DNA from: Isoetes taiwanensis
Lineage: Eukaryota; Streptophyta; Lycopodiopsida; Isoetales; Isoetaceae
DNA: 64,000 nucleotides
Reading direction: 5' to 3'
Assembly (NCBI GenBank): GCA_021234155.1
Contig: JAJEKV010000046.1
Location: forward strand, 6,825,012 to 6,889,011
In this document: positions 22,432 through 45,970 of the stretch, one piece after another
How the letters are laid out: each line of letters opens with the position of its first letter
Position numbering within the stretch: position 1 is the stretch's first letter
Translations under genes and position numbers: made by a program
Notes under the pieces: generated by a model
Seen by the model: only the letters and a program-made list of their open reading frames with translations
The model's database searches: none
Told to the model about the DNA's origin: nothing

Positions 22432-22456
22432 AACAAGGTTGCAAATTAAACGGGAG
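22432..22456 (+). repeat. Left terminal inverted repeat of the ParB-MTase transposon
   Basis: It matches the right TIR at 21 of 25 positions. It overlaps a perfect hairpin (22,448-22,475) whose stem is AAACGGGAGTG / CACTCCCGTTT with loop TTGCAG; the right end lacks this hairpin. Confidence 0.85.
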
Positions 22457-22786
22457 TGTTGCAGCACTCCCGTTTGAAAGATTCCTTTAGAAAAAACACG
22501 TCATTCTAAAAAGTGGGCTTTTTTAAGAGAGGTTTAAAGTTTCAGGAGTATCAGTTTTTTTTTGGGCCTAGTTTTGGGGTATTTTTTGGACACGACTTTC
22601 GTTTTTGGAGTGAAGCACGTGAAAATAGCAAAATTGAGACACGAGTACAAAATTATTTGTAGGTGGATGTATAAAAAAACACAAATTTAGTAAAAATAAC
22701 AATAATAATTTCTTTACTGTTTTTTTGTTACATCAGTAATGGCAATCAATAATAAATATCAGTAATTAACCACAGCAAAAGGTCCA

Positions 22787-23233
22787 TCAGAGATCTAAAT
22801 TGTAGTCTTCTTCATTTTTCTTACTGCTCTCTGCTTGGTCGGTTTGTATCTTCTCACCATTTTCTGGTGACTTAGGCTTCTCAGTGTCAATAGTTGATTC
22901 CGGTATGGCAGCAAGAGCTACTTCTTTCAACTCTGCAAAAGTAGCTTCGTCATCTAAGGAGCTTGTAAAGGGAGGCTGTATTTCCGATGATGTCATCTTA
23001 GCAAAATCAGAATTAGACTTTGCCCCCAACTCTTGATTCTCGTCTGGTAGAGTTGGTAAAGCAGCAAGTCCCATTTTAATGAAACTGACAGCCTCCTTAT
23101 CAATATCAATTGCTACACAGTTACGACCCTTTTTTAGTGCACAAGCAATAGTTGTACCAGAGCCAGAAAATGCATCGAGCACCCAATCTCCTGGACGTGA
23201 GAACATGTCCAGAAGATGGTTAATCAACTTCTG
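22787..23233 (-). CDS. Methyltransferase last exon: SAM-binding motif I and acidic tail
   Basis: It begins QKLINHLLDMFSRPGDWVLD and continues FSGSGTTIACALKKGRNCVA. The VLDAFSGSGTT loop binds S-adenosylmethionine, and the following D in AIDIDKEA is the motif II-like acidic residue. The residues before the insertion (NHYQKP) and after it (QKL) fit the bacterial pattern EKPxxLL...PGDxVLDPFxGSGTT with no gap. About 85 acidic residues follow, ending NEEDYNLDL and TGA. Confidence 0.85.
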   Translation of the reverse strand, partial: QKLINHLLDMFSRPGDWVLDAFSGSGTTIACALKKGRNCVAIDIDKEAVSFIKMGLAALPTLPDENQELGAKSNSDFAKMTSSEIQPPFTSSLDDEATFAELKEVALAAIPESTIDTEKPKSPENGEKIQTDQAESSKKNEEDYNLDL

Positions 23234-24599
23234 CATTAGAGTTTTTTTGAGGTCAATTAAGGGCCCTTACTCGATGCCACGTCAAAAAGCTCGCGGCCAA
23301 TGGGGAGCCGAGCTTGTACAGAGTTTTTTTACCGAGCCTTGGTTTCGCCATTCCAGGTGTCAACTGCACGTAGCTTCGGTAATATCCGTGCCTCTAGCTT
23401 CGGGTGTCAGATTACACACGTAGCAATTATGACCGTTAGCTCCCGCCCTCAATTCCCGCTCAGGTATTTTCTTCAACAAAGTTTGCACAAAGATCGATTG
23501 CCCGCGCCAAGGAAACTTCGATTTGCTCGGGAATAGCTTCGACCTGCGCCAAAGTGAGTTTCGACCACAAAAAAGCTTCGGTCAAGGTAAAATCACCGAG
23601 CCTTTCCTAGTATTTCGATTCCGCTCCACATTCTAATTTGAATTCTGTGACTTTAGATGGCTATAAGCTCTATCACAATCGAAAATGACTTTGAAAGCTT
23701 TGTGGTGTGTCGACCGGGAGCTTTGTTACACTCCAACCTGGCATGCGAGGTGAATAGCGAGTCAAAAGATGCAGGAGAAGTGATGTTTCTGCACATTGGA
23801 AGGCTTTGGTGGTCAGTTTTCGATCAGGCAAAGAGATATTTGTACAAGTGAGTCATGTATACACTCCAACAAATATGGCAAAAGAAAAAATAAGCAAGCG
23901 AAGAACTTTCCCACGGTTAGAAGCAAATTGTAAGTATGTACTTCTATGCAATCCATATCTAAATTAGTTCAGTTACTTATCCAGTTCATTCCTATTCTCT
24001 CGGGGTTTGTGTATATCCGATGTGTAGAACACGATCTCTTCACAAAGCAGTGTATTCCATTGCTTTCACCAAGATATGGGCTCCTTGTTGTTCGAAGGTA
24101 GCATACCAGTGCAGCTCACAGAAAAGGAGTATATGGTTTCGAGGTATGAATACTCTCCACCTAAGATCCAAGCTTATTGAGCTTCCATTGCCCACCTGTC
24201 CGAAAGCTATCCGCAGCCTCTGGATGCCACTACGCCTTACTAGCACGGAGTAAGTTGTCACGTGAAATGTTTACGGCATTGAAGGAGAAGGGAGGTTTCT
24301 CGGGCATGTGAAGACAAATTTAGGAATTGATTTGTTCATTGCCTTATTCAAGATGTTTACAGATTCCAATAAATCGATTGGATAGTTTTTAGATAGTCTA
24401 TTTCTTGAAGGTTGGAGTGCTCGACTTCATGATGGAGCTGAATCCATGAATGCGAGGATAAGTCAAGACATGGTTCGGTTCAGATATTGCATCCAGATAT
24501 GAATCTATGTAATATAAATATAAGTGACAATTAATTGGAGATCTATTGTATATTGATTGGAAAGGTTTGCTTTTCAAATGTAACATAAAAAAATTAAAG

Positions 24600-24727
24600 T
24601 AGCTACGATGCGAAAATATGAATACCATAAAATAAGGAAGAGTTGTTTTCGACCAGAGGCACGGGGTGCGAAATTATGTATAACATAAAATATGGAAGAA
24701 GAGCCAAGACCGTAGCTACGATGCTTA
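24600..24727. repeat. MITE-like hairpin unit (GTAGCTACG family)
   Basis: TAGCTACGATGCGAAAATAT pairs imperfectly with GACCGTAGCTACGATGC at the other end. The middle contains TGTATAACATAAAATATGGA, the same core as the 25.55 kb units. Confidence 0.55.
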
Positions 24728-24870
24728 AATTCATTAGAGGTTTGATGGGATCACTTAAGGGCCCAACCCCGATGCCAGCATGGAAACCCACTAGGGTTGA
24801 GGCCTGAGACTCTAGGTTTCTAATGAACAGGTTGTAGATTCAAATCTGTATTTCATTAACAATCTCAAGA

Positions 24871-25333
24871 GCGTGGTTACAGTGCGCATTTGCCATATCC
24901 ATAACCAATGGTTACATGCATTTGCATCTTTGTGGCTATTATGCAACACTTTATTTCTTTCTTTTTAGGGCGTGGCTACGGTTGTCATGTCCACAGCCCA
25001 ATGAATACATGCATTTCCCATTGTAACCACTGTGCCCTTTTTTTACTTTTTTTTAGGGGCGTAGTTACAGTGCGAATTTGCCATGTCCACAGCCCGACGG
25101 ATACATGCATTTCGCACTGTAACCACGCCCTAAAAAAAAAAAAAAAAAAAAAAAAATAGGCCGTGGTTACAAGGTCTTGAATTTGTTATGTCCATGTACC
25201 GACGGATACATGCATTTTCAAAAGACCGTAACCACGCCTTTTTTTTTTTTTTTTTAGGGCGTAGTTACAGTGCAAATTTGCCATGTCCACAACCCAACGG
25301 ATACATGCATTTCGCACTGTAACCACTGTGCCC
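24871..25333. repeat. Tandem array of palindromic MITE-like units
   Basis: Five ~75-bp units share the form GCGTGGTTACAGTGCGAAT - GCCATGTCCACAGCCC - GATACATGCATTTCGCAC - TGTAACCACGCC. Each can fold into a hairpin, and poly-A/T runs separate them. The layout suggests one miniature element amplified in place or inserted repeatedly into its own flank. Confidence 0.75.
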
Positions 25334-25550
25334 ACTCTTTCATAGTCAATTTGACAATAACTAACGAGAGACTACTTTTGAACTCACAAAACACTACTCA
25401 AAATTTAATGAAACAAAAAGAGTTGTCATTGCCTAAATATCAATGTTCATTGCTCTAAATTACTGAAAGCATCCTCATTAACTTCCTCCCTTCAATTGAA
25501 CCTCTTCTTGTATGGCAGCTATAAAATAAGAAAGTGTTGTTTTTGCATTG

Positions 25551-25676
25551 TAGCCACGGTGCATAAATGTGTATAACATAAAATATGGAAGTGTTATTTT
25601 CGCACCGTAGCCACGGTGCGAAATTGTGTATAACATAAAATATGGAAACGTTATTTTCGCACCGTAGCTACGGTGT
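25551..25676. repeat. Two overlapping MITE-like hairpin units (GTAGCCACGG family)
   Basis: GTAGCCACGGTGCGAAA and TTTCGCACCGTAGCTACGG bracket a conserved core, TGTATAACATAAAATATGGA, present twice. Neighbouring units share one arm. Confidence 0.7.
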
Positions 25677-26266
25677 TAGTCACTCTTGCATATCAAGCTG
25701 CTACTAAGGCACTCACCTTCAAACTATCACAAATCAAGGTGTTGCTCAACGAGAATGGTAAAGAGTAAATCAGATAAGACATGGGAGTTGTTTAGCACAT
25801 GGTATGATAATATAGTAGAGAAAGAATAGAATTTTTGTCAGAAGCATCCAAAAGAGTTTGAGGAGGAGATAGAGGAGCTAGTTGATGCAACTACTGTATA
25901 CAATAATTTTTGCCTGACAGTAGATGTTATGGTAGAGTGTAACAGGTTGCATATGGGGGCATTCTTCATAGCTTCATGGCTAGAGCTGGACCTGACCTGA
26001 AACCTTTACTGAACATGTAAGCTTTAATTAAGATATTTCTGAAGGCTGATCAAGACCGAATTAGGAGGTTATTGAGGAGACTACCTGCAGAACTGTGCAG
26101 GAAAAAAGGCAAAGAAAGTTTTTACAGCGTAGATATTATGTTCAACACATACATGATTTACAATAAGTCAAACCAAGATGCCGGTTCTTCAAGTGTGGAG
26201 GTCGCTCAGATAGAATATCCTGCCTCACCAGTAGAGGAGCAAATAGATCCTGCAGAAAAGAAGCTC

Positions 26267-26640
26267 CTATTGGAAAACGAGGAGAATGAGGAGGTATTGG
26301 AAGAGGAGGTCTCTGAGAAGTTGGCCTTTAGCCCAGAGGTCTATATTCATAGCTCCAAAAGCTCGCAATGCATCTTCATCTATTGGTTGCTTCCAAGTGA
26401 ACTTATTCCTGTAAGGCAGGCATCCTTTTGGCAATTGCACTCTAAATTGACCCTCGGAATTAGTTTGATCCTGAAACAGAAGTATTAGAACAAAGAACAC
26501 TCAAAGGAATGCAATGACAACTTGGAAACCAAATACCTTTGCCATCGACATTGCAAAAGACCGAGAACCGGAGCGGAGCTTAGAATTAGGAAGATTCTTG
26601 TCAACAAACAGAGTGAAATTTGCTGGCAAGAATCCGCCAT
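26267..26640 (-). pseudogene. Possible two-exon coding remnant inside the CATTA element
   Basis: On the minus strand, a frame NYGGFLPANFTLFVDKN...SMAK ends at a donor (AAAG/GTATTTGG). A frame starting DQTNSEGQFRVQLPKG follows a TTTCAG acceptor 60-70 bp later in phase 0 and includes NKFTWKQPIDEDALRAF. The peptide looks protein-like, but I cannot assign a family. No in-frame ATG is seen upstream. It could be transposase or a captured host gene piece. Confidence 0.3.
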
Positions 26641-26967
26641 AATTCGAATTCAAACAATGCTTGGGCGCGATGGCAAGGTCGTTGGCGCTCGATGGCGCGA
26701 TGGCAAGCTCAATGGCGCTGAAGCTCGATGGCTGAAGCTCGATGGTGGGAAAAGGAAAATCTTAGATGTAATCATTAAATTTTGTGGTCGTTAGGAAATA
26801 ATGATTGCAAAGTTAGGTACGAGGTTAGGTTCGGAGGGGCGGAAGTTAGGTTAGGGGAGAGTGAAAGTTAGGTATGGAGGGGGGAAAGGTAGGTTCGGGA
26901 TCCTACGTGGCAGCCCCCCCAATATACTCTTACAAGGCCCTTATTTGACCTCAAAAAAACTCTAATG

Positions 26968-27190
26968 TGGCTTCTGATAGTGATTCACTATTCTTCCTTG
27001 TGCACTAGGGTCTTGCAGCTTCTGCAAAACCGCTGGAAACTCCAACACGTTCGAAAAGTTCTGACACGCAACTGTGTTGAAGTGTTCCATTGTACGTTTC
27101 CCATCAAAACTCCAATAAGCGACGTGGAGATATTCGACTTTACTCAACAGTCTAGGGCCTCCGCCATGGTAATTTATATTTGTCTTGTAC
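26968..27190 (-). CDS. Methyltransferase exon 6 (motif between catalytic loop and SAM loop)
   Basis: A CTTAAG acceptor opens the exon; with TG from exon 5 it reads WYKTNINYHGGGPRLLSKVE and ends GRIVNHYQKP at the nested insertion. In beta-class enzymes this region precedes the EKP motif and lies in the target-recognition half of the fold. Confidence 0.8.
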
Positions 27191-27341
27191 CTTAAGAACA
27201 AAAAAAGAAAAGAGGATTTAAGTACAGCCGAAGGAAACGTATTCCGGAATAGAAACTCCTAACATTGCTCGCAGGTGTTACTAAAAGGAAAAGAACTTAA
27301 AACAAATATAAGGACATATGTATTCCAGAATAAGCGCTTAC

Positions 27342-27784
27342 CAAACCATGTTTTCATAACCAACTTGCGTAGGGGAACCAAAATGATTTTTAAAACTAGT
27401 TTCCACAAGGCCGGATTGCATGCTTGAGTGAAATACGACCAATCTCCAATGTTTTGCCGTGGTAATCTGCTTTATGCCGTCGACGAAAGCATTAAACTCA
27501 GAGTTTTTAAATGGCTGGTCGTCGTAGCGGCTGTCTTTGAGCTTGAATCCATATGGAAGGTCAGCTACTACCAAGGTAAAATCTTGGGGCTTTATTGATT
27601 CGGGTAATTTGGTGCAATCACCGTGTACAATAGAGAATAGGTTATTTTGATCGAACATTGTAAACCTTTCGTAATCGAAGGGCTCAGAATCGAGAACACG
27701 CCTGTCCGCCAGCGTCCTCTCTTCTCGCGCTGTCCTGACCAAGTGCATGAAGCCCTCCGACAGGTCTTTGTTTTTCTTTTTGCT
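27342..27784 (-). CDS. Methyltransferase exon 5 (catalytic motif IV)
   Basis: It reads SKKKNKDLSEGFMHLVRTAR, then SIVHGDCTKLPESI, VVADLPYGFKL and later HWRLVVFHSSM. HGDC...LP followed by ADLPYG matches the start of bacterial beta-class enzymes (GDC...L...DPPY). The first proline is replaced by leucine while the second proline and the tyrosine remain, so the amino-methylation loop is atypical but plausible. The exon ends GTTTG/GTAAGC. Confidence 0.8.
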
Positions 27785-27845
27785 CTGCAAAAAAGAACGT
27801 CTTAGTAACAATAAAAACAACAATATAAAAAACAAATCAACATAC

Positions 27846-27984
27846 CCAGCCTTCAAAATTTGAGGCATACTGGACAATCCTTTCGTCTGAGGTTGCGACA
27901 GGATAAAGCTCTTTGCACCTTTCCCAGCTGTCAACATTTAATTGTTCCATTAAGCAGGTTTGACATGTGATGACATTTTTCTGG
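27846..27984 (-). CDS. Methyltransferase-gene exon 4 (cysteine-containing linker)
   Basis: Phase requires the acceptor TTACAG/CCAG. The exon reads QKNVITCQTCLMEQLNVDSW and ends SNFEGW before a GTATG donor. The CQTC pair might bind zinc, but only two cysteines are visible. Confidence 0.7.
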
Positions 27985-28255
27985 CTGTAATACCACACAA
28001 ACGTTAGAAGGAAGAAAACTAAGAAGGAAAGCAACAAGAAAGAACTATTCAAAAAACTGTAAGCCAAGGTGTATTCCGAAATACACTTTGTCTTTCGCGT
28101 GAGGGCCAAAGTGTATTCTCACACACTGAATACACTTTGGCTTTCGTGTGTGAGCCAAAGTGTATTCTGGAATACACTTTGGCTTTCGTGTGTGAGCCAG
28201 TGTTTTTCGAACTACACTTCTCCCTACCAAACAAAAACCCAAAGTGGCATTCTTA

Positions 28256-28486
28256 CTTGTGGAGCTCCTTGGACATTTCTTCGAGAGTAAATTCTTTATC
28301 GACAACCTTTTACAGTAGCCTTTCTAGTATATCCATATCTGTGAAGCCCTGCATTTCTCGCCACACAGTGATTGTCATTTCTTTTTTGGGGACGTCGGAT
28401 CCTTTTTTCTTTTCGGAGACCTTGCCTTTGCTTTTCAAATCACCACGCTCGAACATGGTGAATATTTCGTTTTGGAGGTCCCAAAT
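28256..28486 (-). CDS. ParB-MTase exon 3 (linker, internal stop)
   Basis: Between a CTCCAG acceptor and a GTAAGA donor the frame reads IWDLQNEIFTMFERGDLKSK, a lysine-rich part, and WREMQGFTDMDILERLL followed by TAA, then KVVDKEFTLEEMSKELH. The lone stop in otherwise conserved-looking sequence suggests recent decay. Confidence 0.75.
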
Positions 28487-28553
28487 CTGGAGAGAAGAAA
28501 GCGATATCAGTGGGAGGGCTGCAGGGGTATTCCAGAATACAAAAACAACTTAC

Positions 28554-29932
28554 TCTGCCATCTCTGAAGGCTAGCTGGAACCAGTTGTCGTGTGGTATTA
28601 GAGACTGCCGTTTGTTAGCCTCGTCGTATTTGAGGCAGCACTTCCTTTAGTTCCAATGATTATTGTGGTTTCTTCAAATCATCTCCATATTTTTCTTTGA
28701 ATATCATATATTCCCTGTGCATGAACCTGATTTTGTCGACAAAACTCATTTTCAGCTTATATTCGTTGTCAGCATTGTGCATGTTGGCAACGATTTTGGC
28801 TTCTTCGTCTGTCAGGCCACAGTAAACAGCGCAGAGCACAGAGAGATATCTTGGGTTGTTTTTTTCTTTGTGCAACTGTCTCCTTGCTTTGAAACTGTGG
28901 TTTCCCCCAAGGACGTAGTGCATGTAAGTGTCAGCATTTTCTCTGTCGTAGTCCTTGGGGTCCATGCACTGGGTTCTGTCAACAAGAACAACAATTGGAG
29001 CAACATGGGCATTGGGGTTGCTCCTTATTCTATCCTTCAAATTTCTTAAATGATCAGCATAGATTTTTCGAACCTGAAGGGGGCGCTCACCAGCTTCATT
29101 CTTCGGTGGCAACCTCATGGAAGTTACTGGCAAGTATATTACCCCTTGAACGTACTTGTTAAGATTTATTTGTTCCATCCTCTCTGAGGTCTTATCCACC
29201 TTCTTTTCTTTAATGGCCACCCCAGGAGCCTTGCCCTTTCCCTTCTTCGTTTTTGGTTGTTCCTCGTCGATTTCAGCAACTTCAAGCTGCTTTACCTTCC
29301 GCTTCTTTGGTTCCTTAGCGGCTACGGTGGCTCTTGGCCTGCTTTGTTTTTTTGGCGGCACTGGCGGAACATCTGCTTCTTGTTCTTGGGACCCTCCATC
29401 TGATGACGCCCCTGATGGGCTCCCTGATGGGCTCACTGAAGGACTCCCATTATCTTCCTCTTCCCCATGCTCTGACTCGCTGTAAGCGAAGTTTTCGCTT
29501 GTTGTGCTTCGAATCTCGTTGATTATGACACTGAGCGGTTTCTTGTTGCAATAGTGAGACACATACTTGTAAAGTGCCGGCGGGTTTACTTTGACCATTC
29601 TAAAGTAGGCTTCATCAACATGAATAAATCCTTGGGACGTTGCAAAGGATAGTCTGCCTCGTTGTCTTGACTCCCCGGCTATTTCACTAACAGCTTGTAT
29701 GGTGCCCATGCAAATAAACTCTCTGTCATCGTACCTTTTATTCCCAGCACTCCGACAAACATGCAAGAAGGTAAGGGTACTGTACTTTCCAGATGTTCCC
29801 CTAGTAAAGAACCACTGCGTTTGAGGGTTTTCGTAAATCGCAGGCGCAGCATCGTCTTCAATCCTTCTCTGTGGGTGCGGCTTCTGGGACATCTTGATGG
29901 GCTTCTTCTGATGTTTCTTGCCGCTTTCTTGC
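28554..29932 (-). CDS. ParB-like domain exon (exon 2)
   Basis: After the TACAG acceptor the frame reads MSQKPHPQRRIEDDAA, a cysteine/aromatic N-terminal segment (TFLHVCRSAGNKRYDDREF), an acidic-proline and lysine-rich linker, then the ParB-like part: VQGVIYLPVTSMRLPP, LKDRIRSNPNAHVAPIVVLV, HYVLGGNHSFKARRQL and TDEEAKIVANMHNADN. GNHSFKARRQL corresponds to the G-[ND]-[HR]-R nucleotide-binding loop of ParB, and the DEEA...N segment to the following helix. Near 28,665 the frame hits TAA; the plus-one frame continues KCCLKYDEANKRQSLIPHDN to a GTAAGT donor. Confidence 0.8.
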
Positions 29933-30357
29933 CTGTACACATTTAAGTGTAAACACGACTTTTTTAGTGAAAACAGTGGCAGAAAGCTATTCCAGAATAC
30001 AAAATGTCTTAAACAAAAGACAAAAATAGTACAAAAACAGGTCAAAAAGGCAAAAACAAGAGTGCAACCTTGACACAAAAACAGGCTTAAACAAGTCTAA
30101 AAAGCCTAAAAAACACCTAAAAATAGCGCAAGAATAGACCTTTCAAACCCAGAAGTGGACAGTGTATTCCGGAATACACTTTCGACTTCGCGTGAAGGCG
30201 AAAGTGTATTCCATAATACACTTTGGCTTACACCCTCAGTCGAAAGAAGGCAAAAGTGTATTCCGGAATACACTTTCGCCTTCGAGTGAAGGCGATAGTG
30301 TATTCGGGAATAACAAACAAGCACACAAATGATTGTACGTTGTACTTTCTAACTCAC

Positions 30358-30365
30358 CTCTCCAT
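30358..30365 (-). CDS. First coding exon of the ParB-MTase gene (8 nt)
   Basis: ATGGAGAG is followed by a GTGAGT donor and joins the acceptor at 29,932 in phase to give MERQESGKKHQKK. This start was chosen because it restores phase. An ATG at the MSQKPH codon 13-14 residues later is an alternative. Confidence 0.6.
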
Positions 30366-30699
30366 TTTTCTCTATGTCGATCGGAATACAGTCTTTGAAT
30401 ATTTTAATCGAAGGCGCTGGCGCTGGCGACTTGAGCTCAGAGACTGGAATGCGCTACTGAAGGCGCCGAAATTTCCTTTTAAAGGTATCATTTTCGTCTT
30501 GCACTTTTCCTATGTGAAGCGGAATACGTTTGGCTCTATTATCCTAATCCTGTGTATTCCAGAATAGCTTTTATTTTGACTTTCACTTGATTAGTACTGG
30601 AACTTCTACTTGTACTACGTGGGCGTGTATTCGGGAATAAGAAAAGCTCTGCACTACAGAAGGTTTCTCAAATCTCTTCACTATTTTGCAGTTGTTAAA
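30366..30699. promoter_or_regulatory. Divergent promoter region between methyltransferase and transposase
   Basis: About 335 bp separate the two start codons. It contains two full palindrome sites (30,552 and 30,625) and two half sites, so both genes could respond to the same factor. No clear TATA box is seen in either direction. Confidence 0.55.
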
Positions 30700-32084
30700 A
30701 TGACGAATCGCTTCGTGAACAAGCTTCCACCACCTTTTGTTGTCTCACTCGTCTAGTTCTGAGGACACGCTTGGGAACAATGTTATTTCTACTGAAGACC
30801 GGCATTCTCCGACTCCTACATCGTCTTCATCGTTGTTGCTTCTCGAAGACACACCGAGTCCAGCACGTAACAGACTTCCACCACCCTTCCAACCGTCACC
30901 AAGTCCTGTTCGGAGCATGTTGCCACCACCCTTTGTTCCATCCCCGGGATCTACAGAAGCTCCACAACAACGGGTGTTCAAGAACAAGCTACCCTCCCCG
31001 ATTTGTAGCTTGGCCCCTTCATTCAAACATACAAGGAACACGAGAAAGTAAAGAAGAGGCGTGAGATTCACTACAATTTCTCTCACCGGGACTTCACTAC
31101 AAATGAGGGCGATGCTCCAAAGATGCACTCCTCTTCACACAACGGTTGTGACACATGGCTTTGAATTCGGTCCGCTCTAAAGGAGATGTTTGCAAGAACT
31201 CCTTTTCAAGATGGTACAAGAACAGTGATGCCACAACCTCTTATGGGCCATCACCATCCTTTAACCTTCTTGTACCACCGCCTTTTTAGGGAACAACTTC
31301 CGTGGTCTGCTTTTCCTCTACAAACACACCACTCAGGAGAGGAAGTCACCCCCGAGTAGAAGTTTCATCAAAAGATGAAACCCCGAGATTACATCTCCGA
31401 CCAATCTTGAAGAAATTCAAGGTGGATTTTTGGTTCGGGGCGTGCTCCTCAGAAGAAGAAGAAATCTTATGGATGAACACAAAATGAGGAAACTCTTGAG
31501 AAGTAAATGCTGCTCATTGGGTTGCATTAACAGATTTAACATGGCTAAATTACGCGTTAGAGACAACTACAGTTCCATGACATTGGCGCACTGAATGCCT
31601 ACTTAGCTTATCATGTAAGACCAGACCGCAACACCTTCTTGCACTACATTAACCGTGAAGAAGTTTGCCAGAAATGTTTTATGGTTGTCCACCGTTTAGG
31701 GTCCACCAGAATGTCTAGAATACATAAAAGACTGGACAAAAATCCAGCAATCGATGATCATTGTGGACCAAGAAGAGTTGTAACCATGCATGCCCCTTCT
31801 GGCCGTGTCATGGATGGAGAAATATTTGAGAGAAACATGTGAGAAGCTACTAACAACAAACAACATGTATCATTTAACTGATAACATCACCAAAAAAGAT
31901 GTTTTCAATGAGTACAAAGAGACTTGCACTCAGCTTCAGCACATCTCTTACTCACACTTCACCAGACTGTGGAAAAGTGAATTCGGTCTTGTGAAAATTC
32001 CCAGAAAACATAGAATGTCTGTTTGCTCAAGGTGTGCAGAATTAAAGAGTCAACGAGAAACTGCAAAGACAGAGGTCGAAAGAA

Positions 32085-32151
32085 GTAAGCTCACGTTCTC
32101 CAATCTCTCACTTGTTTTAAAGAAAATGCTTTGACCTGATTTCTTCTACAG
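32085..32151 (+). other. Spliceosomal intron in the transposase gene
   Basis: Donor AGAA/GTAAGC and acceptor TTCTTCTACAG/ATATTG. Removing 67 bp joins EVER to NIVQQNLARHR in one frame. Confidence 0.8.
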
Positions 32152-32961
32152 ATATTGTGCAACAGAACCTTGCCAGACATCGTGAACAACAAGCAGCAGA
32201 GAGAAGAAAGCTTGCCAAGCACAGAAAAAAAGCTCTTGAACGTCCACTGCAATATATGTATGTTGTGATTGATGGAATGGACAAAAAAAAAACTACTCTA
32301 CCACATTTCTTGAACATTCCTAAAGATGTGCCAGAGGAATGTTTTGTTAAGGTCCACCTTGTAGGAGCTATGGTCTTCAAAGGAAGTCTAAAGTGCAAAG
32401 TATTTTTGACATATCCAAACTTGCATGGTGACCCGAACCTCACAATTACAATTCTTAACAAGGTCCTGTGCGAGCAAGAGCAATTACCACCAGTGCTTTA
32501 CCTGCAACTTGACAACACTACAAGGGAGAACAAGAATCAAACACTCTTTGCATACTGTGCTATGTTAGTGGAGCTCGGGATCTTTAGAAAAGGGAAGCTC
32601 GGTTTCTTACTTGTAGGCCACACTCATGATCAAATTGACCAAATGTTCAGCAGATTTTTTGTGCGTCTTAGAAGGAAGAAGGCTTTCTCTCTTCCTACAC
32701 TAGTTCGAATTTTTGAAGATTCTTACACTCCCACTCCAGTGATCGATCTTCTTAAGGAGACTGCTGATTTCAGAGAGTTTGTTTTCTCTCAACGTTCAGA
32801 CAGAGAACAAGTTGTGAACAAGTTGAATGATCTCACCTTTCAACATCACATCAAGTTCTACTTGAAGGATGGCCAGAGTTTCTTACAGGGGAAGAAGTAT
32901 ACCACAACTAAGGACTGGAGTCCACCAGAGGGATTACGCTTCCTTAAATATATTCCAGACA

Positions 32962-32992
32962 TTCCTATGATGGGTCCTATGATAGGCATATA
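32962..32992 (+). repeat. Terminal repeat A1 of E2
   Basis: Begins TTCCTATGATGGGTCC and ends GGCATATA; repeated at 33,926-33,956. Confidence 0.85.
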
Positions 32993-33365
32993 CTGGCTGG
33001 TGTTCTCATTGAGCTTTGTAAAACATTGAGTACAAATGAATCCCTCACTAGGGATAGATAAATTTGGAAATATGAACTTTAAATGATCCGAAACTAGACA
33101 ATCATCGAGAGCATGATGAAACTGAAGAATACAACATAAAAGATGGTTTAACCCGCCACTTGGTCGATGCAAAGTTGAGAAGACCTGGTGACTGCTTCTC
33201 ATCGGGAAGAAAAACCACGCCTTCTTAGGTTTTTGAGGAAACCCAAGCAAATAGTTGAAGCACGACCCCACGCACTATGGCAACCACAAAGCCTTAAACA
33301 ATCCTGCAGAATCAAGGCTGAAAGAAAAATAACCCGTCAATGAGTTAGATGCCATAGGCAAGAAG

Positions 33366-33690
33366 ACTCGGAGGCTCCAGGGCCACGCCGAGAAAGAAAC
33401 AACAGCCGACCAATCGGGAACCGTCCGCGGAATGACCATCGCGGGAAAAAACAACCGATTAGTGCTGCCTCGGAGGCTACAGCGCCAAACCGAGAAAAAA
33501 CAATGAATATGATCTCGGAGGCAACAGCGCCACGCCGAGAGAAAATATGAATAATAAATATTGACTCAAAGGCTACAAAGCCACACCGAGAGAAAACATG
33601 AATGAATAAATAAAAATACTAGTGCCATGCCGAGAAAGAGTAGACCAATAAGTATGCCTCAGAGGCTACAAAGCCACACTGAGGAAATAA
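33366..33690 (+). repeat. Irregular array of six hairpin motifs in E2
   Basis: Copies of CTCGGAGGCTACAGCGCCA then GCCGAG occur at about 33,368, 33,472, 33,512, 33,562, 33,625 and 33,658. They vary but keep the pairing CTCGG/CCGAG or a compensating change (CTCAG/CTGAG). Confidence 0.7.
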
Positions 33691-33772
33691 AGAATGCAAA
33701 ATTAAAGGACATAGAAAAGGAAATAACGAACACGATCAAATGAAAAAACCATCAAGGGAGGGAGGGTGAGGG

Positions 33773-36900: not shown

Positions 36901-37916
36901 CATATCACTAAAAAGTCAAAAGGAAGCCAATGGATCTAATGCATTAAATAAAAATAAAGAGAAGGCAAAGGTTAGATAAAGCAGATGGATCATATAAAAG
37001 AAAAGAGAACACAAAAAATTAACCGGAGCAAATGGGCCAAATAAGACCGTATTGCCACTAAGGAGCGCCAATATTATAGGAAATAATTGGACAATGCAGC
37101 AAAAAAAAGGGTAGAATAACAACAAAATAATAATAATAACAATAATAAGAAGAAGAACCTCCACCAAGCTAGCCACATATAAAGGAACAACAATATTATA
37201 GCCAACAAGGCGATATGAACGAGAGAAACGAACCAATGAAAGGACAAACGGACTATCCGAAAGAACGGTTTGGCTGACAGTGCTAAACATAATAGATTGC
37301 AATTGGAAAACAAATGAACTAGAGCAAAAAGATCATCGACCGGAATAGAGTAGAAAGAGGCAAATCAATAAGACATACCGTTAATATATCAAGGAAAGAC
37401 GAAAGCAACAAAAGGGAACAAGACCATCATATCACTAGACCAAACAAAACATCCGTCGTTTAAAGCGCCTACCCACCAAAGATACAACTTGCAAAAAGAA
37501 TCATCAACCGTGGAATTAATCTACATGACAAAAGTATACATTAAGTGAAAAACAGGTATAGTTTAAATGACTTAAAGAAACCCACATGGGCCAAAAGATG
37601 TACACATCAAATTATACAATCATGTGAAAACGCCAAAGGATATTGAGGAGCAAAAGGTTGCAAACATGCAAAGAATACTAATCGACCGCAACGTACTTGT
37701 AAATATCCAAAACAATAACCAAATAGCCAAAATCGAGACATACCTCCATTTATATGTTTCTAATGGGAGGCAGATCCACCAAATGATGAAATGAGACCTT
37801 CTTGATGCGCTTCAGAGGGTCCAGCAGAAAATAAGACACAAGATTGAAGGGCGCGTTGATTGCCAGCAAGAAAGGCCCAAACTGGCCGACTCGATTTGTA
37901 CTAACGACTTGTTTAG

Positions 37917-38185
37917 CATCACAAAGGGATAAGGGATCCTGCGAAAGATTTCTTCAGAACAATGCTAAGAAAATGTATATCGTTCATATATAACAAAAAA
38001 TATAGCAAAGAATAACCCCATCGACCCCTTTAACATCATGAAGGGATAAGGGACCCTGTGAGAGATTTCTGCAAAACAATGCTAGGAAAATGTATCGTTC
38101 ATGTATAACAAAAATAGCGAAAAAATAACCCCATTGACTTCTTTAACATCATGAAAAAAATATAACGAAAAATAACCGCGTTGTA
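37917..38185 (+). repeat. Tandem repeat of ~118 bp inside E2
   Basis: Two full units and a partial third share AAGGGATAAGGGA, AACAATGCTA and AAAATGTAT, then AATAACCCCAT. They lie in the part that would be the 5' leader on the minus strand. Confidence 0.8.
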
Positions 38186-38199
38186 CATTGTGTGCTTAT

Positions 38200-38260
38200 G
38201 AAGATTCGAACCCAAGCCCCCATTCAAACAAAGGAGCAACGTTACCAATGCGCCACCAAA
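38200..38260 (-). repeat. tRNA-like segment (pol III A and B boxes) in E2
   Basis: On the minus strand an A-box-like TGGCGCATTGG (38,245-38,255) precedes a perfect B box, GGGTTCGAATC (38,203-38,213). The spacing fits a tRNA, but the 3' acceptor half does not pair. It is probably a SINE head or tRNA pseudogene. Confidence 0.5.
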
Positions 38261-39260
38261 GTAATTGTTATAAATGTGCCCACCGAGTTTAATAGATCAT
38301 CAATCTGTGGTTTAATCAATTTAAAACAGAACATGGCCGGCAGTACCTGAGCTTTCGTCGGCGAGAACACTATCCGGAATTGCTTAACCTGAACGATCCA
38401 AGATTTGGAGCTGGAGAGGCCGTAAGATGGAGCCTGTAGAAGCCCTCAAGCCAAAAAGGAGGGATTGAGGCCATTATAGAGGCGTGGTGTATGGCCCCTA
38501 ACTGTAATCGATCCCTTGGACTAAGAGGATCACATCAGAAGCATCACAAAAAACAGAAGCAATTGAAGTTCTATTACAAAGGGCAACAATCCTAGACTTA
38601 TCTAGGTACCAGCCAGAAAGAAAGCAACAGAACTGGACAGAAAGAATATACAGTTGCCATCCTCTACTAAAGCACAAGATCTCAATCGATTAAATTGCCC
38701 AGATTAGAAACCCCAGACCAAAATATCAAGAACCAAAGCTGAAGCAAACGATGCAAGCATAGCTCTAAATCGGACCAAGAAAGAAGTGCCAAAGCCCCTT
38801 TACCAAATGATCATACTAAAAAACCACCAAATCGTGGAAAGCCAGCAAAAGAACAGAAGACATAAAGCTCCAAATCTAGAACAGAGCCACCGAAAAAAAT
38901 AGAAGAAAAAACATTGTTCTATGATAGCAACTTATCTGGATAGAGTGGGCTCTGTAGACGATACTACCTCACAAAAGATCGCCCCATGCCTTTGGGGATG
39001 ATAATCTCCATCTGAGGTTCTGATGACCACCGTCAAAGGGCCTTCCCCAAGCAAGAAGACATCGTAAGCGATCTCCCTCGATTCAAAGCACGACGGCAGG
39101 ATAAATGATTTCCATGGAATCAATTCGTATAAAGGCCTAAGGCCACGATTGCGAAAATATGCAGAGTGAGTCTCTTCAGAGTCAGGGATGAAGAACTAAG
39201 ATGGGATGTAGTAGAGCAGAAGAACTAAGATGGGATGTAGTAGAGCACCAGCAGCTCAAT

Positions 39261-39413
39261 AAACTGATAGGATAGAGAAGAAGAAGAAATCTAGCTCAAG
39301 AGAACGCCGATGATAGAACAATGAAGAGAGGCTGAATAAATAGGAGGAGTGGCAAAGGGACGTCCCCATCCAAGGAATGTCGGTTCTATTGCTGTCGCAA
39401 TAGAACCGTGGCA
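39261..39413 (+). repeat. Terminal repeat B2 of E2
   Basis: Right end of E2, ending GTGGCA. The hairpin stem is perfect, with a 6-base loop. Confidence 0.85.
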
Positions 39414-40126
39414 CTTCCTTCATAGAACGTGCAGAACAACTTCCTCTCAAAAATCCTAAGGAGTCCAAGCAGAAGAAAAGCCATTGAAAATGGAATTTCC
39501 TCAGGCTTTAAGTACTTCTTAGAAGAAGATTGGATGTGGTGGAGTAATTTCTTTCTCGAACAGAAAATTGTTGTGAAAAATATAGCTCTAAGACAGTTGC
39601 AAGAACCATTTGGATGGCCTAACACCTTCCATCAACCCCAGCACCAAGCAGGTCCAAGCAATGCTACATTAGCACCTGCAGTAGAAGAAGACGAGGATCG
39701 AGTCATGTACCTCGGACCAAGACGCAGGAATGACCCTCAAGGTAATATCACAGAAATTACCAAGGGTATGCTAATTGCTCTTCCAACTGAGGAGGATGAC
39801 AGGTCGACCTTTCTGGATAGCAAAAGTGCTTGACACAGTCAAGGAGGAAGGCTTAGTCACTAAACTCAAGATTCATTGGCTTGCAACACCTCAGAAAATG
39901 CTTTTGAAGGTAGATATGAGTTAGAAATGAGAAGCCAAGGAAAAGGGAGAAAGTCCAAGAAGGTGGGTTGTAGGGATGAGCTGATCCTTAATGACGTGAC
40001 TATATTGTGCTATGATTTTAAATTGAAATCTGACAATCGTCTACGCCAGAGGACTATCAATTTGCTTAAAAAAGCTTGTAATTACGAAGAAGAGGATGAA
40101 GAAGGTGGTGGCAATGCTACACCATC

Positions 40127-40131
40127 TGTTG
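40127..40131. repeat. Copia target-site duplication (TGTTG), left
   Basis: Identical to 45,455-45,459. Keeping one copy joins ATPSV to DSDEEDNSS in frame. Confidence 0.9.
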
Positions 40132-40669
40132 TGTTAGGATTTGAAGACAATATACTCAATAAACTGACCACAAGACTTACAATCCAATGATCTTAGTGAA
40201 AAGCCAAAAAGTGGTCACTAATTTTCACATGATCATCTGCAAATCAATAATTGTTATACAATCAGGCGCTCAAACAATCTCCTGCTTCCATATCACGACC
40301 TGCAAGCGTCCCCTGTTTCTCCATTCTTCCAGCATTTATATCTATATTTCCTTTCCAATCTGGGTGCATCCACTTGTCAACTTGTGCATCCCCTTCATAT
40401 AGTAAGTTCTCCAACTTGCCTAAAAATTCGGAGTAGATAGACTTGCTGTCCTTAAATTTCGGCCCTAGTTGACTTTGACTTTGACTGGTCAATGCAAACC
40501 CTAAGTGGCGGGCAGGGGGTGTCTGAAGATTTCTAGCGAGCCCAGCAACACCCGGGTAGCACTAGCCCGCCACCTTTGACTTTGACTTTGACTTTGACCC
40601 ATCGCCACCGCTTCTCATAGGTCTCCCCATTCAACTCCATAGCTTTGAATAACATGACACCATTTAACA
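40132..40669 (-). repeat. Copia 3' LTR
   Basis: Plus-strand ends are TGTTAGGATTTG and CATTTAACA. It contains a TTTGAC(T) tandem run near 40,577. Differences from the other LTR are almost all transitions. Confidence 0.95.
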
Positions 40670-40679
40670 CTTTCCCTTC
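40670..40679 (-). promoter_or_regulatory. Polypurine tract
   Basis: GAAGGGAAAG on the minus strand lies directly before the 3' LTR, as needed to prime plus-strand DNA synthesis. Confidence 0.75.
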
Positions 40680-40929
40680 ATGTTATTTTTCTTGCAAATT
40701 GATCATTTGTCTCGATCTACTAAATTTTTATTTCACAAAGCCTTTGTCAAAATATTCGCTTAACCAAGATGTCGGGCTTTGAACATATTGCGCTTCAATG
40801 ATTCTTTTTCCTTATGAAATGCATCTCCATTTCGATATGTTTGGTCCTTTTCATGTTGTATTGATTTTTTCGTCATTCCTATGTAATCAGACCTGCCGAA
40901 AAACAATTTCAAAGGTTTTCTTTGCTCTA

Positions 40930-43900
40930 TACCTATTTTTGTAGCAACCTTTCACTCCATACTATTTCCTTAGCAAAGAAGGGTTGGCCCGCGATATTCT
41001 CGCTTCGGATGAAAGTGCTATTGCCTTTTGCTTCCTCAGATTTCCATGAAATGGGCCCTCCTCCTAGCATGCAAATAATTCCCGAAGTTGATTTTTCTTT
41101 CATCGTGGTCTCCACCCCAATCAATCACAAAGATGATAGCAACTCCATGTTATCGTAATTAAATTGTATCCCATAATCCACGCCTTTCAAATATCTTAGA
41201 ACCCTCTTAGCTGCCTCGCGCAAGTGCTCTTTTCCAAAGTTATGACAAGCATCTACTTAGAATATTGACGCAAAATGAAATATCGGGTCTCGCATGACTA
41301 GATAAATATAGTAAGCGTACCAACTAACTCTTGATATGGAATGTTTTCCATTTTCGACTGTCATCATTCAAATTCAAGGTTAGTTTGTTACCTGCAACCA
41401 TGGGAGTTTTTACCACCTTACAATCTTCCATGTTGAATCTTTTGAGCATGCCTGCAATATTCTCACCTTGTGTCAAAGTAAGAAGCTATTTGTCTCTATC
41501 TCTGAAGACTTCAATTCCTAAAAACTTTTTAAGTTCGCCCAAGTCTGTCATTTTAAACCGATTCTTGAGAATGTCTTTGCATTTTTGTAGCACATCAAGA
41601 TTGCTACTAACCATCACATTGTCATCCACATATAGTGCAATATAGCATACTTCATTCCCATCCTTGAACAAATAAATATTTCCATCATCCTTTAGTTTTA
41701 TAAAACCTTGTTCCCTTAAATATGAGTCCATGCAAATATACCATTGTCTTCCAGGACTGCCTCAGCCCATATATATATAACCTTTTTAAGTTTCCACACT
41801 TTGTCTTTCCCTTGCTCAAAGCCGTGAGGTTGCATCATAAAGATATCCTCCTCCAAGTCAAGATTCAAGAAAGCAAAGAGAGACATCCATATGATGTACC
41901 TCAAAATTCTTTTGCATTTGCTATCGCTAACAACATCCCGATACTTGTCATTTTTACTATAGGGGAAAAAGTTTCCTCATAGTCAATTCCCTTCTTTCAG
42001 GTGTGTGTATCCCCGTATACTAATCGAAGCTTTATACTTAATCGAAAGTGAGGTTGTACTCCTTGTTTAATTTTAAATATCCATTTACAACCCACTGCAT
42101 GTCTACCTTCAGGTAAGTTTACAAGCTCATACGTCCCTGTTCTTTTAAAAGCACTCAGCTCATCATTCATGGCAATTTTCCATTCTTTTGCATCAGCAAC
42201 ACTTATAGCTTCTCTATAAGATTTTGGTACTCCAGTATCCAGCAAGGCAAGGATTTCAATAAGGTTTACACCTGCTACTTCACTTTGTATTCTTCTACTT
42301 CTACCTGTGTTATCTCTTCCAAATCTTTCATGGTCAATATTAGCCTCTTGTTGCAAGATCCGAAAGCTGGTAGCTTCTTCTACCAGCCTTTGGTCGTGTT
42401 ATCTCCTTTTCTATAGTATCGCCCACACCGCCTCTGAGCATCTTCAGTACCAACTTGTTGAGAAGAGAGTTTGTTGGCATCCTGCTCATCATCATCATCA
42501 ACAAAGCTCGTATTCAATTTCTGAACTTCCTTTTCTTTAGGGTTAACAGAGAAAAACTTTATGTTTTTATAAGATTGAGATTCGTCAAATGTTACATCTC
42601 TACTGATCAAAATCTTTTTCCTTTGTGGATCAAATAACCTGTATGCCTTGGATTCTTGATCATATCCTACAAGAAAAGCTATTCTTGCTCGATCATCCAA
42701 CTTTAACCTTTGTTGCTTTGGTACATGCACAAAGCTTAGACAACCAAAAACTCTCAGTGTCTCATAGTTTGGTTTAACTCCTGACCATAGCTCATCTGGG
42801 GTCATTCCACTGACTGCTCTATTTGGTAACATATTTTGAACTTTCACTGCTGTTAAGACAGCTTCCTCCCACAAATAATTGGGTAGCCCTGTGTGTTTTA
42901 TCATAGCTCGACAAAGATTTAAAATTGTCCTATTTTTCCTTTCAGCAATGCCATTAGTTTGTGGAGAAAAACTACATGTAAACTGTCTCTTTATCCCCCT
43001 TACCTTGCAAAACTTGATAAACTCAGATGACATGAACTCTCCACCACGGTCAGATCGAATACATTTCACTTTTTTTCCTGTTTCTAATTCCACTTCTGCA
43101 GCAAACATTTTATAAGCCTCAAAGGCTTGATCTTTAGTTCTAAGACACATGCATGTTGTCTTTCTACTAAAGTCATCAATAAAGGTAATGAAATACCTTT
43201 TTTCCTGATATTCCTCTAACATTAAGAGGGCCACAGATCTGTATGCACTAGCTCCAACACTCCTTTGGTTTTTCTCTTTGCCCGCTTAAAAGGCAATCTT
43301 GCATGTTTTCCTAGCATGCAACCTAGGCGCATTCTTGGCTCATCAACTCCATTTTTGCTTTGATTATTTTTGTTTGATCATAGTATCTATGGTGCTATGA
43401 TTAACATGACATAACCTCGGATGCCAAGTGTCCATATCCGAATCATAATGAATTAACACAGGCAAACAACCACTATCCAATGCAAACAAATTACCAAATC
43501 TTCTCGCCAAGAAATTTGATCTCATTATTCAAAAGCACTTTTACATTGATACTTGTCAAAACCAACAAAGTAGTCCATGTCTACTAACTGCGGCAAATGT
43601 AAATTAAATTTCTCGACTAGTGAAGGTACAATACGTAACATCCTTCAAGTTTATCGCTTCTCCCTTGAAGATCAAACAATTCTAACATTCCCGTGCATTG
43701 AACATCTTGCAACTTCCCATTTCCCAACTTGATATGCTTAATTCTTCCTTCTTTTTCCTCCTTGAATAATTTGGCTGAACTGGTCACGGATTTTTCTGCT
43801 CCACTATCTAATATTAACCATTTCATCATCATTGTTAGATTTTTCTTTTGAAACAACCAAAATGTCATAATTACTTACCTCAGCATCTTCATCCTCTTCA

Positions 43901-44110
43901 CTTGATTGTTCTTCAATATCTTGCACCAAATTTACAGCAGACCTTTGTGTATCAGGATTCCTTCCTCGACCTCTAGAATAATTTCTCCCTCTACTTGGTC
44001 TGCCTCTACTCATTTTGCTGCTTGAGCACTTGTTTGCAAAGTGACCTCTCGGCCTCCACAGCTTAAAGCACTCAACCTCTTTCAATTTAGGACAATTTAT
44101 CTTTAAATGC
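40930..44110 (-). pseudogene. Copia gag-pol polyprotein, frameshifted
   Basis: In minus-strand order: a Gag end with a knuckle-like CFKLW...GHFANKC (one cysteine lost) and an Arg/Gly-rich tail; protease WLILDSGAEKSVT; integrase with FIDDFSRKT, IRSDRGGEF and QTNGIAERKNRT (the DDE residues) plus the GVKPNYETLRVFGC block; reverse transcriptase EWKIAMNDELSAF and ALYVDDNVMV (YVDD box at 41,621-41,632); then RNase H pieces such as STSGIICMLGGGPISWKS. Integrase is a single open frame of 284 codons, but RT and RNase H are split over several frames. The copy cannot make a full polyprotein. Confidence 0.9.
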
Positions 44111-44900
44111 CCTTTTGCTTTGCAAAGGAAAACAAGGACCTATTTCACTCTTATCTTTAGCACTTTTTCCTAAAAAACTTTGCTTTGCCCTACCTCGCAT
44201 ACAACACTTCAACATTATCTTCAATGTCATCATCATACAATACCTTATTTTGTTCAAACTCGCTCAATCATTTCTTCTCACGCTTCTCTCTGGTTTTGGC
44301 CACATTCCTAATAAGAGTTGACAACCGCTTGTTCCTTCAACCGCTCTTGCCACATGCAATAATTTTTGTTTGCTTTCAATCAAGAACACCCCAAAGACCT
44401 TCTAAGTCTGCCACAATGTTATCGAACTTAGAGAAAAACTTTGGTAAGTCATCACCTTCTTTTTTACTCTTAGCATCCTAAGTGCCTTATCAAGAACATC
44501 AATCCGAGATGATGTTTTTCCTCATAGTTCTTGAGCAGAAGTTCCAAATATCACTAGGGGACTTTCCCTTATCTTCAAAGAAAATTGAAGCCCCAACTTT
44601 GCCTGGTCAAAATACCATAAGCTTCACCTAAGTCTAACAACTTCATCTTTACCACTTTTACTTGAGTCTACTTCACTGCACTCTCCTTAAGTTTCACCCG
44701 CATTTTCCAGAGGTAGAACTTCTTCTTGCGACCCCACAGAGACCGTGATCCCCACTTGAACTAGTTCCTTGAACTAATTCCTGAGCCCTTCATTTTCAAG
44801 AACATTTTTGATTTGTTCCTTCCAAATCTGAAAAACTTGGTCCCCTTCATACATCGTAATAGAGTTCAACGGCAAAGCCCGCTTCCAAACCCCGCTTGAC

Positions 44901-44914
44901 ATGGCTCGATACCA
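44901..44914 (-). promoter_or_regulatory. Copia primer-binding site (initiator tRNA-Met)
   Basis: TGGTATCGAGCCAT on the minus strand follows the 5' LTR. It matches the usual TGGTATCAGAGCCA with one base missing. Confidence 0.8.
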
Positions 44915-44915
44915 C

Positions 44916-45454
44916 CGTTAGGATTTGAAGACAATATACTCAATAAACTGACCACAAGACTTACAATCCAATGATCTTGGTGAAAAGCCAAAAAGTGGTC
45001 ACTAATTTTCACATGATCATCTGCAAATCAATAATTGTTATACAATCAGGCGCTCAAACAATCTCCTGCTTCCATATCACGACCTGCAAGCGTCCCCTGT
45101 TTCTCCATTCTTCCAGCATTTATATCTATATTTCCTTTCCAATCTGGGTGCATCCACTTGTCAACTTGTGCATCCCCTTCATATAGTAAGTTCTCCAACT
45201 TGCCTAAAAATTCGGAGTAGATAGACTTGCTGTCCTTAAATTTCGGCCCTAGTTGACTTTGACTTTGACTGGTCAACGCAAACCCTAAGTGGCGGGCAGG
45301 GGGTGTCTGAAGATTTCTAGCGAGCCCAACGACACTTGAGTAGCACTAGCCCGCCACCTTTGACTTTGACTTTGACTTTGACCTGCTACCACTGCTTCTC
45401 ATAGGTCTCCCCCATTCAACTCCATAGCTTTGAATAACATGACACCATTTAACA
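44916..45454 (-). repeat. Copia 5' LTR
   Basis: Pairs with 40,132-40,669. The plus-strand first base is C in place of T (CGTTAGG), so one terminal base has mutated. Confidence 0.95.
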
Positions 45455-45459
45455 TGTTG
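45455..45459. repeat. Copia target-site duplication (TGTTG), right
   Basis: Partner of 40,127-40,131; the transposase frame resumes immediately after. Confidence 0.9.
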
Positions 45460-45596
45460 ATAGTGATGAGGAAGATAACTCAAGCACTTCCTCTAGTGAC
45501 AGTGAAAGAAGTGAAGGTGATGAGGATGGCATAAATGAACATGATGACGTCCTGGATCCCTCCTTCATCACTCCTCATACTTTTGCACATAACTGA

Positions 45597-45945
45597 GTCT
45601 TAGAAAAAGACTATAAATTTTGCATGTGAATATGAAGATTCTATCTTCAAATTTTGAGAATATTACAGTTTCAGTTACGGACTAACTTCAATTTTTTGTT
45701 AAATATTTTATCCTCTGAAATTAGGGTTTCTCTCGTAAAATATACTTCAAGAACATTCTATTTGCTAAGAAAAATGACACTTTAAAGAAGTCAATTCTTT
45801 CGTTGCACAAAAAAATTAGTCACTTTTGGGGGGGTCAAAATAGAATTTCATGCATCTTTTTTTTTTAACCTCGTTTTACCCCCTTTTTGTAAAAAAAAAG
45901 GGAATCTTTGAGGAATATTCCTTTCGCTCTCGTTTCGATGATTTG
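45597..45945. other. 3' flank of the transposase gene inside the transposon
   Basis: AT-rich untranslated or terminal sequence up to the right TIR. AAAGATTCC in inverted order resembles a block just inside the left end, so the ends share short subterminal similarity. No gene. Confidence 0.45.
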
Positions 45946-45970
45946 CTTCCGTTTAATACGCAACTTTGTT
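45946..45970 (-). repeat. Right terminal inverted repeat of the ParB-MTase transposon
   Basis: Inverted partner of 22,432-22,456 with four mismatches. TTGT (45,971-45,974) follows as target duplication. Confidence 0.85.

Follow-up and report, generated by a model that had tools for sequence, protein, structure and literature searches.

We found that positions 22432-45970 of a 64,000-nucleotide stretch of Isoetes taiwanensis DNA (assembly GCA_021234155.1, contig JAJEKV010000046.1; the whole stretch is hereafter the window) form one cut-and-paste transposon, which carries a gene for a ParB-like DNA methyltransferase beside its DUF7869 transposase gene and arrays of a short palindrome in its non-coding DNA. 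The ParB-methyltransferase was under purifying selection across the period in which the element multiplied. This pairing of a bacterial-type DNA-marking enzyme with palindrome arrays suggests that the element family marks its own DNA. The reading that we favor, with about even confidence, is that of a Sola-like transposon whose ParB-methyltransferase would bind and methylate its own arrays, working in a manner similar to VANC, a protein encoded by the VANDAL elements of Arabidopsis; the binding, the methylation and the anti-silencing effect are what we infer for this protein.

The original prediction described one transposon of about 8 kb with terminal inverted repeats (TIRs) matching at 21 of 25 positions and a TTGT target-site duplication (TSD), and this was borne out. 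The left TIR, from 22432, reads AACAAGGTTGCAAATTAAACGGGAG, the right TIR, ending at 45970, reads AACAAAGTTGCGTATTAAACGGAAG as its reverse complement, and TTGT lies directly outside both. The flanking halves of a long interspersed nuclear element (LINE) do rejoin in frame, as had been proposed: the flanks joined with one TTGT give a 163-aa frame through the join with a reverse-transcriptase-like YADD motif (by eye), and Pfam gave no match in the neighboring LINE frame 46593-47120. The three nested insertions that had been recognized were mapped at 23234-26965, 32967-39411 and 40132-45454 against a full copy, L029, whose two outer ends match the window element at 98.1% and 97.7% identity. Removing them leaves 8,039 bp (by subtraction) and a divergent pair of genes, namely the methyltransferase gene in pieces on the minus strand (N6_N4_Mtase; E 2e-14) and the DUF7869 transposase gene on the plus strand (E 5.5e-49). 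Inside the window, an 11-base TIR word with one mismatch was found 4 times with 3.5 expected, which is chance level, so the evidence for the TIRs lies in pairs across the genome.

The genome searched comprised 1,658,258,908 bases in 1,110 contigs. The TIR word ATTAAACGGRAG occurred 860 + 855 times, compared to 570 + 621 for its reversed control, a modest excess, and many inward-facing pairs were noted among the 100 matches listed. We read 20 TIR pairs picked by spacing. Both genes, in divergent orientation, were present in all 15 pairs spaced 8.1-8.8 kb (L009-L023, picked by that spacing), 14 of which possess a perfect 4-bp TSD. Across the window element and L009-L033, 24 of 26 TIR pairs possess a perfect 4-bp TSD of varied sequence, the exceptions being L014 and L028. 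Three further copies were picked by their methyltransferase: L029 and L030 are full elements and L031 has its middle replaced, with a TSD in each. The 17 full copies are 8.1-8.8 kb long with TIRs of about 25 bp, and the 6.8-kb L024 carries a transposase deletion. A chance neighborhood of the two genes was rejected by the 15 of 15 pairs, with the caveat that they were picked by spacing. It was also noted that a reverse-transcriptase-like frame (YRMSPPELAELKKQLQELL; L030:8409-9401; Gypsy-type by eye) adjoins the right end of L030, and this element may therefore have inserted in a retrotransposon.

The last methyltransferase exon gave 2,701 first-look candidates genome-wide. The best 150 of these, which were the ones scored and which include the window's own, have identities of 73% or more; no in-frame stop interrupts 129 of them (a hand count, biased to good copies). 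As a check independent of spacing, 15 of the best 150 were taken at about every tenth. A left TIR was found in 12 of the 15, in 11 cases at 341-359 bp from the gene end, compared to 0 of 15 with the reversed-sequence control; the twelfth is doubtful (511 bp away, 4 substitutions). The methyltransferase thus usually lies inside these TIRs, and many copies are interrupted.

Selection was assessed from variants in the 17 full copies (16 for exon m2) by comparing variants shared by at least four copies with those private to one copy, the latter being taken as mostly post-insertion. The ratios of amino-acid-changing to silent variants (N/S) were near neutral among private variants (ParB 0.94, MT4 0.98, MT5 0.78, m2 0.81, m3 1.45, N1 1.04) and low among shared variants (0.11, 0.14, 0.13, 0.10, 0.03 and 0.28, respectively; Fisher test, p = 3e-7 to 3e-23). 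Variants in two or three copies were intermediate (0.04-0.67). The transposase exon showed a weaker contrast with fewer shared variants (0.49 private versus 0.30 shared; p = 0.04). Because amino-acid changes are depleted among the shared variants, the methyltransferase was kept working during multiplication of the element. Recurrent CpG mutation could add false shared sites, and these would be expected in both N and S classes.

We determined that methyltransferase and promoter modules have been shuffled relative to a single transposase module. All 17 copies have one and the same type of transposase half (mean nucleotide divergence 0.09). Four types can be told apart in the ParB-methyltransferase part (divergence 0.25-0.29 between types and 0.12-0.16 within them), and four in the N-terminal exon taken with the promoter region (0.29-0.44 between types). 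L011 has its methyltransferase type in common with L010 (0.11-0.15) but not its promoter type (0.36-0.50), whereas it has its promoter type in common with L030 (0.08-0.16) but not its methyltransferase type (0.25-0.30). Mantel correlations (rho) were 0.10 for methyltransferase and transposase (p = 0.20), 0.31 for methyltransferase and promoter (p = 0.004) and 0.50 for promoter and transposase (p = 0.0005), with within-module controls of 0.62 and 0.86. The discordant type combinations show that copies have exchanged cassettes, if not with full independence.

The ParB-methyltransferase (METHYLTRANSFERASE) was modeled in L030 as five exons encoding about 900 aa, with a provisional start and one frame break read through. 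Its order is an N-terminal domain, a ParB-like domain, two linker exons and the methyltransferase. In the latter the DLPY motif comes first and FSGSGTT last, the order of beta-class methyltransferases. It matches N6_N4_Mtase (PF01555; E 3.2e-19) and phage methyltransferase PHROG 67 (E 1.1e-28), and its nearest solved relative is CcrM (E 6e-11), an adenine enzyme; judged by its sequence, the protein could be specific for either N6-adenine or N4-cytosine. Matches were found in 471 phage records, all below 60% identity, and among the 15 phage matches listed only the methyltransferase part was matched. A viral origin was considered and dropped, as scans of viral contigs with the methyltransferase and with the transposase alignment A1 gave no confirmed relative. 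The first ~220 aa of the protein (N-terminal exon; window ~29200-29900) lie under every Pfam cut-off and swap between types along with the promoter array.

The palindrome is a 12-mer, TGTATTCCGGAATACA, which is arrayed at 41-42-bp spacing within methyltransferase introns and in the promoter of that gene. Across 23 elements (171 kb), TATTCCGGAATA was found at 78 exact sites and at 198 with at most one substitution, compared to no exact site, none at one substitution and one at two substitutions in about 21 kb of element flanks, and to none in five Markov shuffles of 16 elements. An unsupervised 12-mer count in 17 elements (non-simple words) returned the palindrome, its parts or its variants as the top 21, with the TIR word ranking lower. 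The extended form is AAAGTGTATTCCGGAATACACTTT; beyond the 12 bases searched, the arms are ~50-79% conserved over all sites, rising to ~80-99% beside the core in the type 4 form of array A, while the outer arms differ by type and stay symmetric. Inward-facing half-sites are spaced by 2, 1 or 0 bases in 135, 32 and 21 of 190 cases. The step from one site to the next is 42 bp in 49 cases and 41 bp in 24 (73 neighbor pairs in 25 elements), about four helical turns. The CG center is changed to CA or TG as the single change in 93 of the 198 sites; CG was probably the ancestral center, with the changes arising as from CpG decay. Genome-wide, the palindrome has 4,830 exact places compared to 65 for the control word, which is the palindrome read backwards; the control is likewise palindromic and matches it in base composition but has no CpG. 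In the 17 full copies, sites with at most one substitution occur only at 1.0-5.1 kb of the element, in methyltransferase introns, upstream of the methyltransferase gene and in the divergent promoter, with none near the left TIR and none in the transposase half or the right ~3 kb, non-coding parts included. The suggestion that the methyltransferase marks the ends of the element does not fit the full copies, whose candidate sites are internal. In the window, the sites and surrounding features are arranged as follows.

22428..22431, no strand: left TSD TTGT
22432..22456, plus strand: left TIR, then a hairpin (TTAAACGGGAGTG..CACTCCCGTTT)
22790..23233, minus strand: last methyltransferase exon, 3' part with the FSGSGTT motif, interrupted by insertion 1
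23234..26965, no strand: nested insertion 1, bounded by inverted ends of 32 bp (97%)
26966..27190, minus strand: last methyltransferase exon, 5' part (start placed approximately from its homology to L030)
27240..27332, no strand: two intron palindrome sites (27240 exact, 27321 with one substitution)
27341..27784, minus strand: methyltransferase exon with the DLPY motif (ends approximate)
27846..27983, minus strand: exon m3 (ends approximate)
28072..28174, no strand: remnant of palindrome array A in an intron (sites 28072 and 28163)
28316..28486, minus strand: exon m2 (ends approximate)
28528..28539, no strand: palindrome site in an intron
28663..30033, minus strand: first exon, with the N-terminal and ParB-like domains (approximate extent)
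29988..30639, no strand: palindrome array B, in the stretch separating the two divergent genes, on the upstream side of the methyltransferase (sites 29988, 30165, 30207 with two substitutions, 30259, 30301, 30555 and 30628)
30875..32966, plus strand: transposase 5' part with introns (DUF7869 core 32121-32966)
32967..39411, no strand: nested insertion 2, within the transposase
39412..40131, plus strand: transposase 3' part
40132..45454, no strand: nested insertion 3, a long terminal repeat retrotransposon, Copia-like by eye, with a 300-bp identical repeat at both ends, ends TGTTAGG/TTTAACA and TGTTG on each side (by eye)
45455..45596, plus strand: transposase C-terminal end
45946..45970, minus strand: right TIR
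45971..45974, no strand: right TSD TTGT

Off the element proper, the window holds one site with one substitution at 5087, outside the element, and a half-site at 24049 in nested insertion 1. The strong subterminal hairpin (TTAAACGGGAGTG..CACTCCCGTTT; 22446-22478) stands at the methyltransferase-side end and is also present in L009, L011, L029 and L030; it is absent from the transposase-side end of the copies compared, so the two element ends are asymmetric. Insertion 1 (3.7 kb) contains short tandem repeats inside its inverted ends. Insertion 2 (6.4 kb) has a 92-bp near-identical direct repeat at 33773 and 39261 with a small hairpin near each, and a transposase stretch is seemingly repeated at ~33924-33955 (by eye).

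With a methyltransferase in the protein, marking of the arrays is the simplest interpretation. It was considered whether the enzyme could instead be a general regulator or a passenger, with the palindromes a functionless tandem repeat that spread inside the element, an account that we regard as improbable. Slippage does expand tandem repeats, the median divergence of array A between copies is 37%, and about 60% of the sites counted at up to one substitution are inexact (120 of 198). However, the methyltransferase is under purifying selection, sites persist in every gene-less copy described below, and the core recurs in every one of the four methyltransferase and four promoter types against diverging sequence between the sites; this recurrence was partly ascertained by the search for the core, which does not apply to the arms.

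The arrays could also recruit a host regulator, for example heat-shock factors, that switches the element on, as ONSEN is reportedly switched on through heat elements. The core TTCCGGAA fits two inverted units of the nTTCn consensus, and array B is located in the divergent promoter. The arms AAAGTG/CACTTT exceed a heat-shock motif, however, half-sites are spaced by 0 or 1 base as well as by 2, and arrays are found inside introns and in gene-less copies too, so we consider this explanation unlikely, if slightly less so than a functionless repeat. Even less weight, and in fact very little, is given to a ParB-parS-like role in which the protein would use the arrays to bring element copies or excised circles together for segregation or synapsis, with methylation secondary. 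A palindromic array and a ParB-like domain do occur in the same element, but the similarity to ParB is weak, and no third gene was recognized in the copies read that could supply a partner ATPase.

Six TIR pairs were found to contain neither gene (L025, L026, L027, L032, L033 and C2, the last read as L003 and L004 with a gap between), and all six possess palindrome sites (12, 6, 6, 10, 4 and 9, respectively, at up to one substitution). Compared with three coding copies, L025-L027 have in common ~300 bp of the left end (except L026, at the cut-off), ~260 bp of the right end and the arrays, and two of them keep an m3 remnant. Between the arrays, their interiors hold 2-2.5 kb without a match to either gene or to these three coding copies. 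L028 (1-4201) is a palindromic derivative with two inverted methyltransferase fragments between identical ends, and the 8 bases outside its ends are inverted copies too. The original prediction held that other copies whose TIRs enclose only one gene would point to chance neighborhood. This case exists in part, as the TIRs also enclose the six gene-less copies and, in L028, methyltransferase remnants only; they look like derivatives of the full element, and the six keep palindrome sites. Such retention would be expected of an array that is required in cis for a function supplied in trans.

The joint retention of arrays and TIRs would also fit arrays that are transposase binding sites or an internal enhancer needed in cis for transposition, with the methyltransferase acting elsewhere, and arrays do lie towards both ends in four of the five gene-less copies read end to end (L025, L026, L027 and L032). 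This is the strongest of the alternatives, though still a doubtful one, as the sites of the 17 full copies avoid the left TIR and the right ~3 kb, and the divergence of array A tracks the methyltransferase types and not the transposase.

For the self-marking transposon that we favor, the following working is proposed. The DUF7869 transposase would act on the TIRs, judging from its fold and the TSD. The second protein, predicted to join a ParB-like domain to a beta-class N6-adenine/N4-cytosine DNA methyltransferase, would recognize the palindrome AAAGTGTATTC-CG-GAATACACTTT where it is arrayed in its gene's introns and promoter. There it would methylate the element, or else nucleate on the arrays and spread. 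The mark might keep the element's promoters open or set their expression, which is VANC's job for VANDAL with other chemistry, and gene-less derivatives would retain TIRs and arrays since these are what the two proteins, supplied in trans, act on. Plant silencing rests on cytosine-5 methylation. Escape from silencing, raised earlier as a possible role, would now have cis sites and selection behind it. The host group of Isoetes is stated to lack the AMT1 pathway of N6-methyladenine (6mA) (PMC12695648). More tentatively, a land-plant transposon in this lineage may write its own 6mA or N4-methylcytosine (4mC) at a dedicated palindromic array, present at thousands of places in the genome, as a self/non-self tag against silencing by 5-methylcytosine (5mC), with gene-less relatives riding free and cassettes exchanged around one retained transposase module.

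Several observations weigh against self-marking. In the sample independent of spacing, the transposase was at the expected distance in only 4 of the 15 methyltransferase copies; among three misses read over 9.7 kb, it was displaced by a nested insertion in L065, while L066 and L067 have none in the part read, and linkage to the transposase is not proved in that sample. The ParB match is weak (TIGR03764, E 2e-4, far under the curated cut-off; DUF6551, E 0.0085), this part has no match in a PDB profile search, and its structure model (predicted local distance difference test score, pLDDT, 38) is unusable, so that the ParB-like identity is suggestive only. All 198 sites are non-coding (84,146 bp coding, 87,058 bp non-coding), but zero coding sites are expected for any 12-mer, and the one informative contrast is that with other non-coding DNA. 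About half of the sites have a changed center, and among 50 genome places listed, 21 fall in copies read and 29 outside them. The core TTCnnGAA also resembles a heat-shock element. Only six gene-less copies were read, and they may descend from one deleted ancestor.

Lastly, the family was compared with known systems. Sola elements are described as having a 4-bp TSD, a transposase with a DDD triad, a size of mostly 2-9 kb and TIRs of 11-1124 bp (PMC10741241). The TSDs (24 of 26 pairs), copy length and TIRs reported above fall within this description, and the TSD together with a transposase whose RNase H fold would be compatible with a DDD triad would fit Sola as described; a new superfamily is not needed. 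The literature searched gave no mention of DUF7869. DUF7869 proteins themselves are also recorded from the fern Adiantum and the liverwort Riccia.

The gene pairing, which was thought to be undescribed, is already in print: the 21.5-kb Sola1-1_Ec32 of Ectocarpus carries a ParB and DNA-methyltransferase gene on the strand opposite its transposase, and its authors suggest that such proteins bind and modify their own transposon (PMC12477816). The Isoetes element is similar in its gene for an N4C/N6A methyltransferase with a putative ParB-like domain, which lies opposite the transposase within the TIRs (15 of 15 pairs, picked by spacing), and differs in its 8.1-8.8 kb and in its host, Sola1-1_Ec32 being from a brown alga. 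Similar proteins are found in transposons of other hosts, the green and red algae (Iyer 2011 and Petroll 2025, as cited by PMC12477816). The excerpted account of Sola1-1_Ec32 makes no mention of a recognition array, a selection test, module shuffling or a land-plant case, and the literature searched, which did not include Iyer 2011 and Petroll 2025, gave no land-plant case and no cis target or array for ParB-methyltransferase transposon proteins. Within it, we found no earlier report of selection on such a methyltransferase, of palindrome arrays or of module shuffling.

DNA-modifying enzymes are also aboard the TET/JBP-carrying DNA transposons of fungi, whose enzyme moves between lineages (PMC12730594); that enzyme oxidizes 5mC, whereas the Isoetes element has a predicted 6mA/4mC writer. 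Retrotransposons with captured cytosine methyltransferases, charophyte cases among them (PMC5890265), likewise carry a DNA methyltransferase, but they are retrotransposons and their enzymes are C5-cytosine ones. The closest likeness in working is to VANC of VANDAL, a MuDR-type element (PMC12730594), where VANC motifs are repeated in non-coding parts of the element itself, VANC binds, DNA methylation is lost, and motif and protein are said to evolve together (PMC5735166). Both systems combine an element-encoded second protein with a short tandem motif in the element's own non-coding DNA, here a candidate target with 198 non-coding and 0 coding sites in 23 elements. They differ in that binding and methylation loss were shown for VANC, while the Isoetes protein, predicted from sequence, carries a methyltransferase; homology is not claimed, and the likeness would be one of working only. 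Since the family has a bacterial-type methyltransferase under selection and its candidate target word stands at 4,830 exact genomic places, the question can be tested directly at known coordinates, and self-marking, if true, would reach the end served by VANC through different chemistry.

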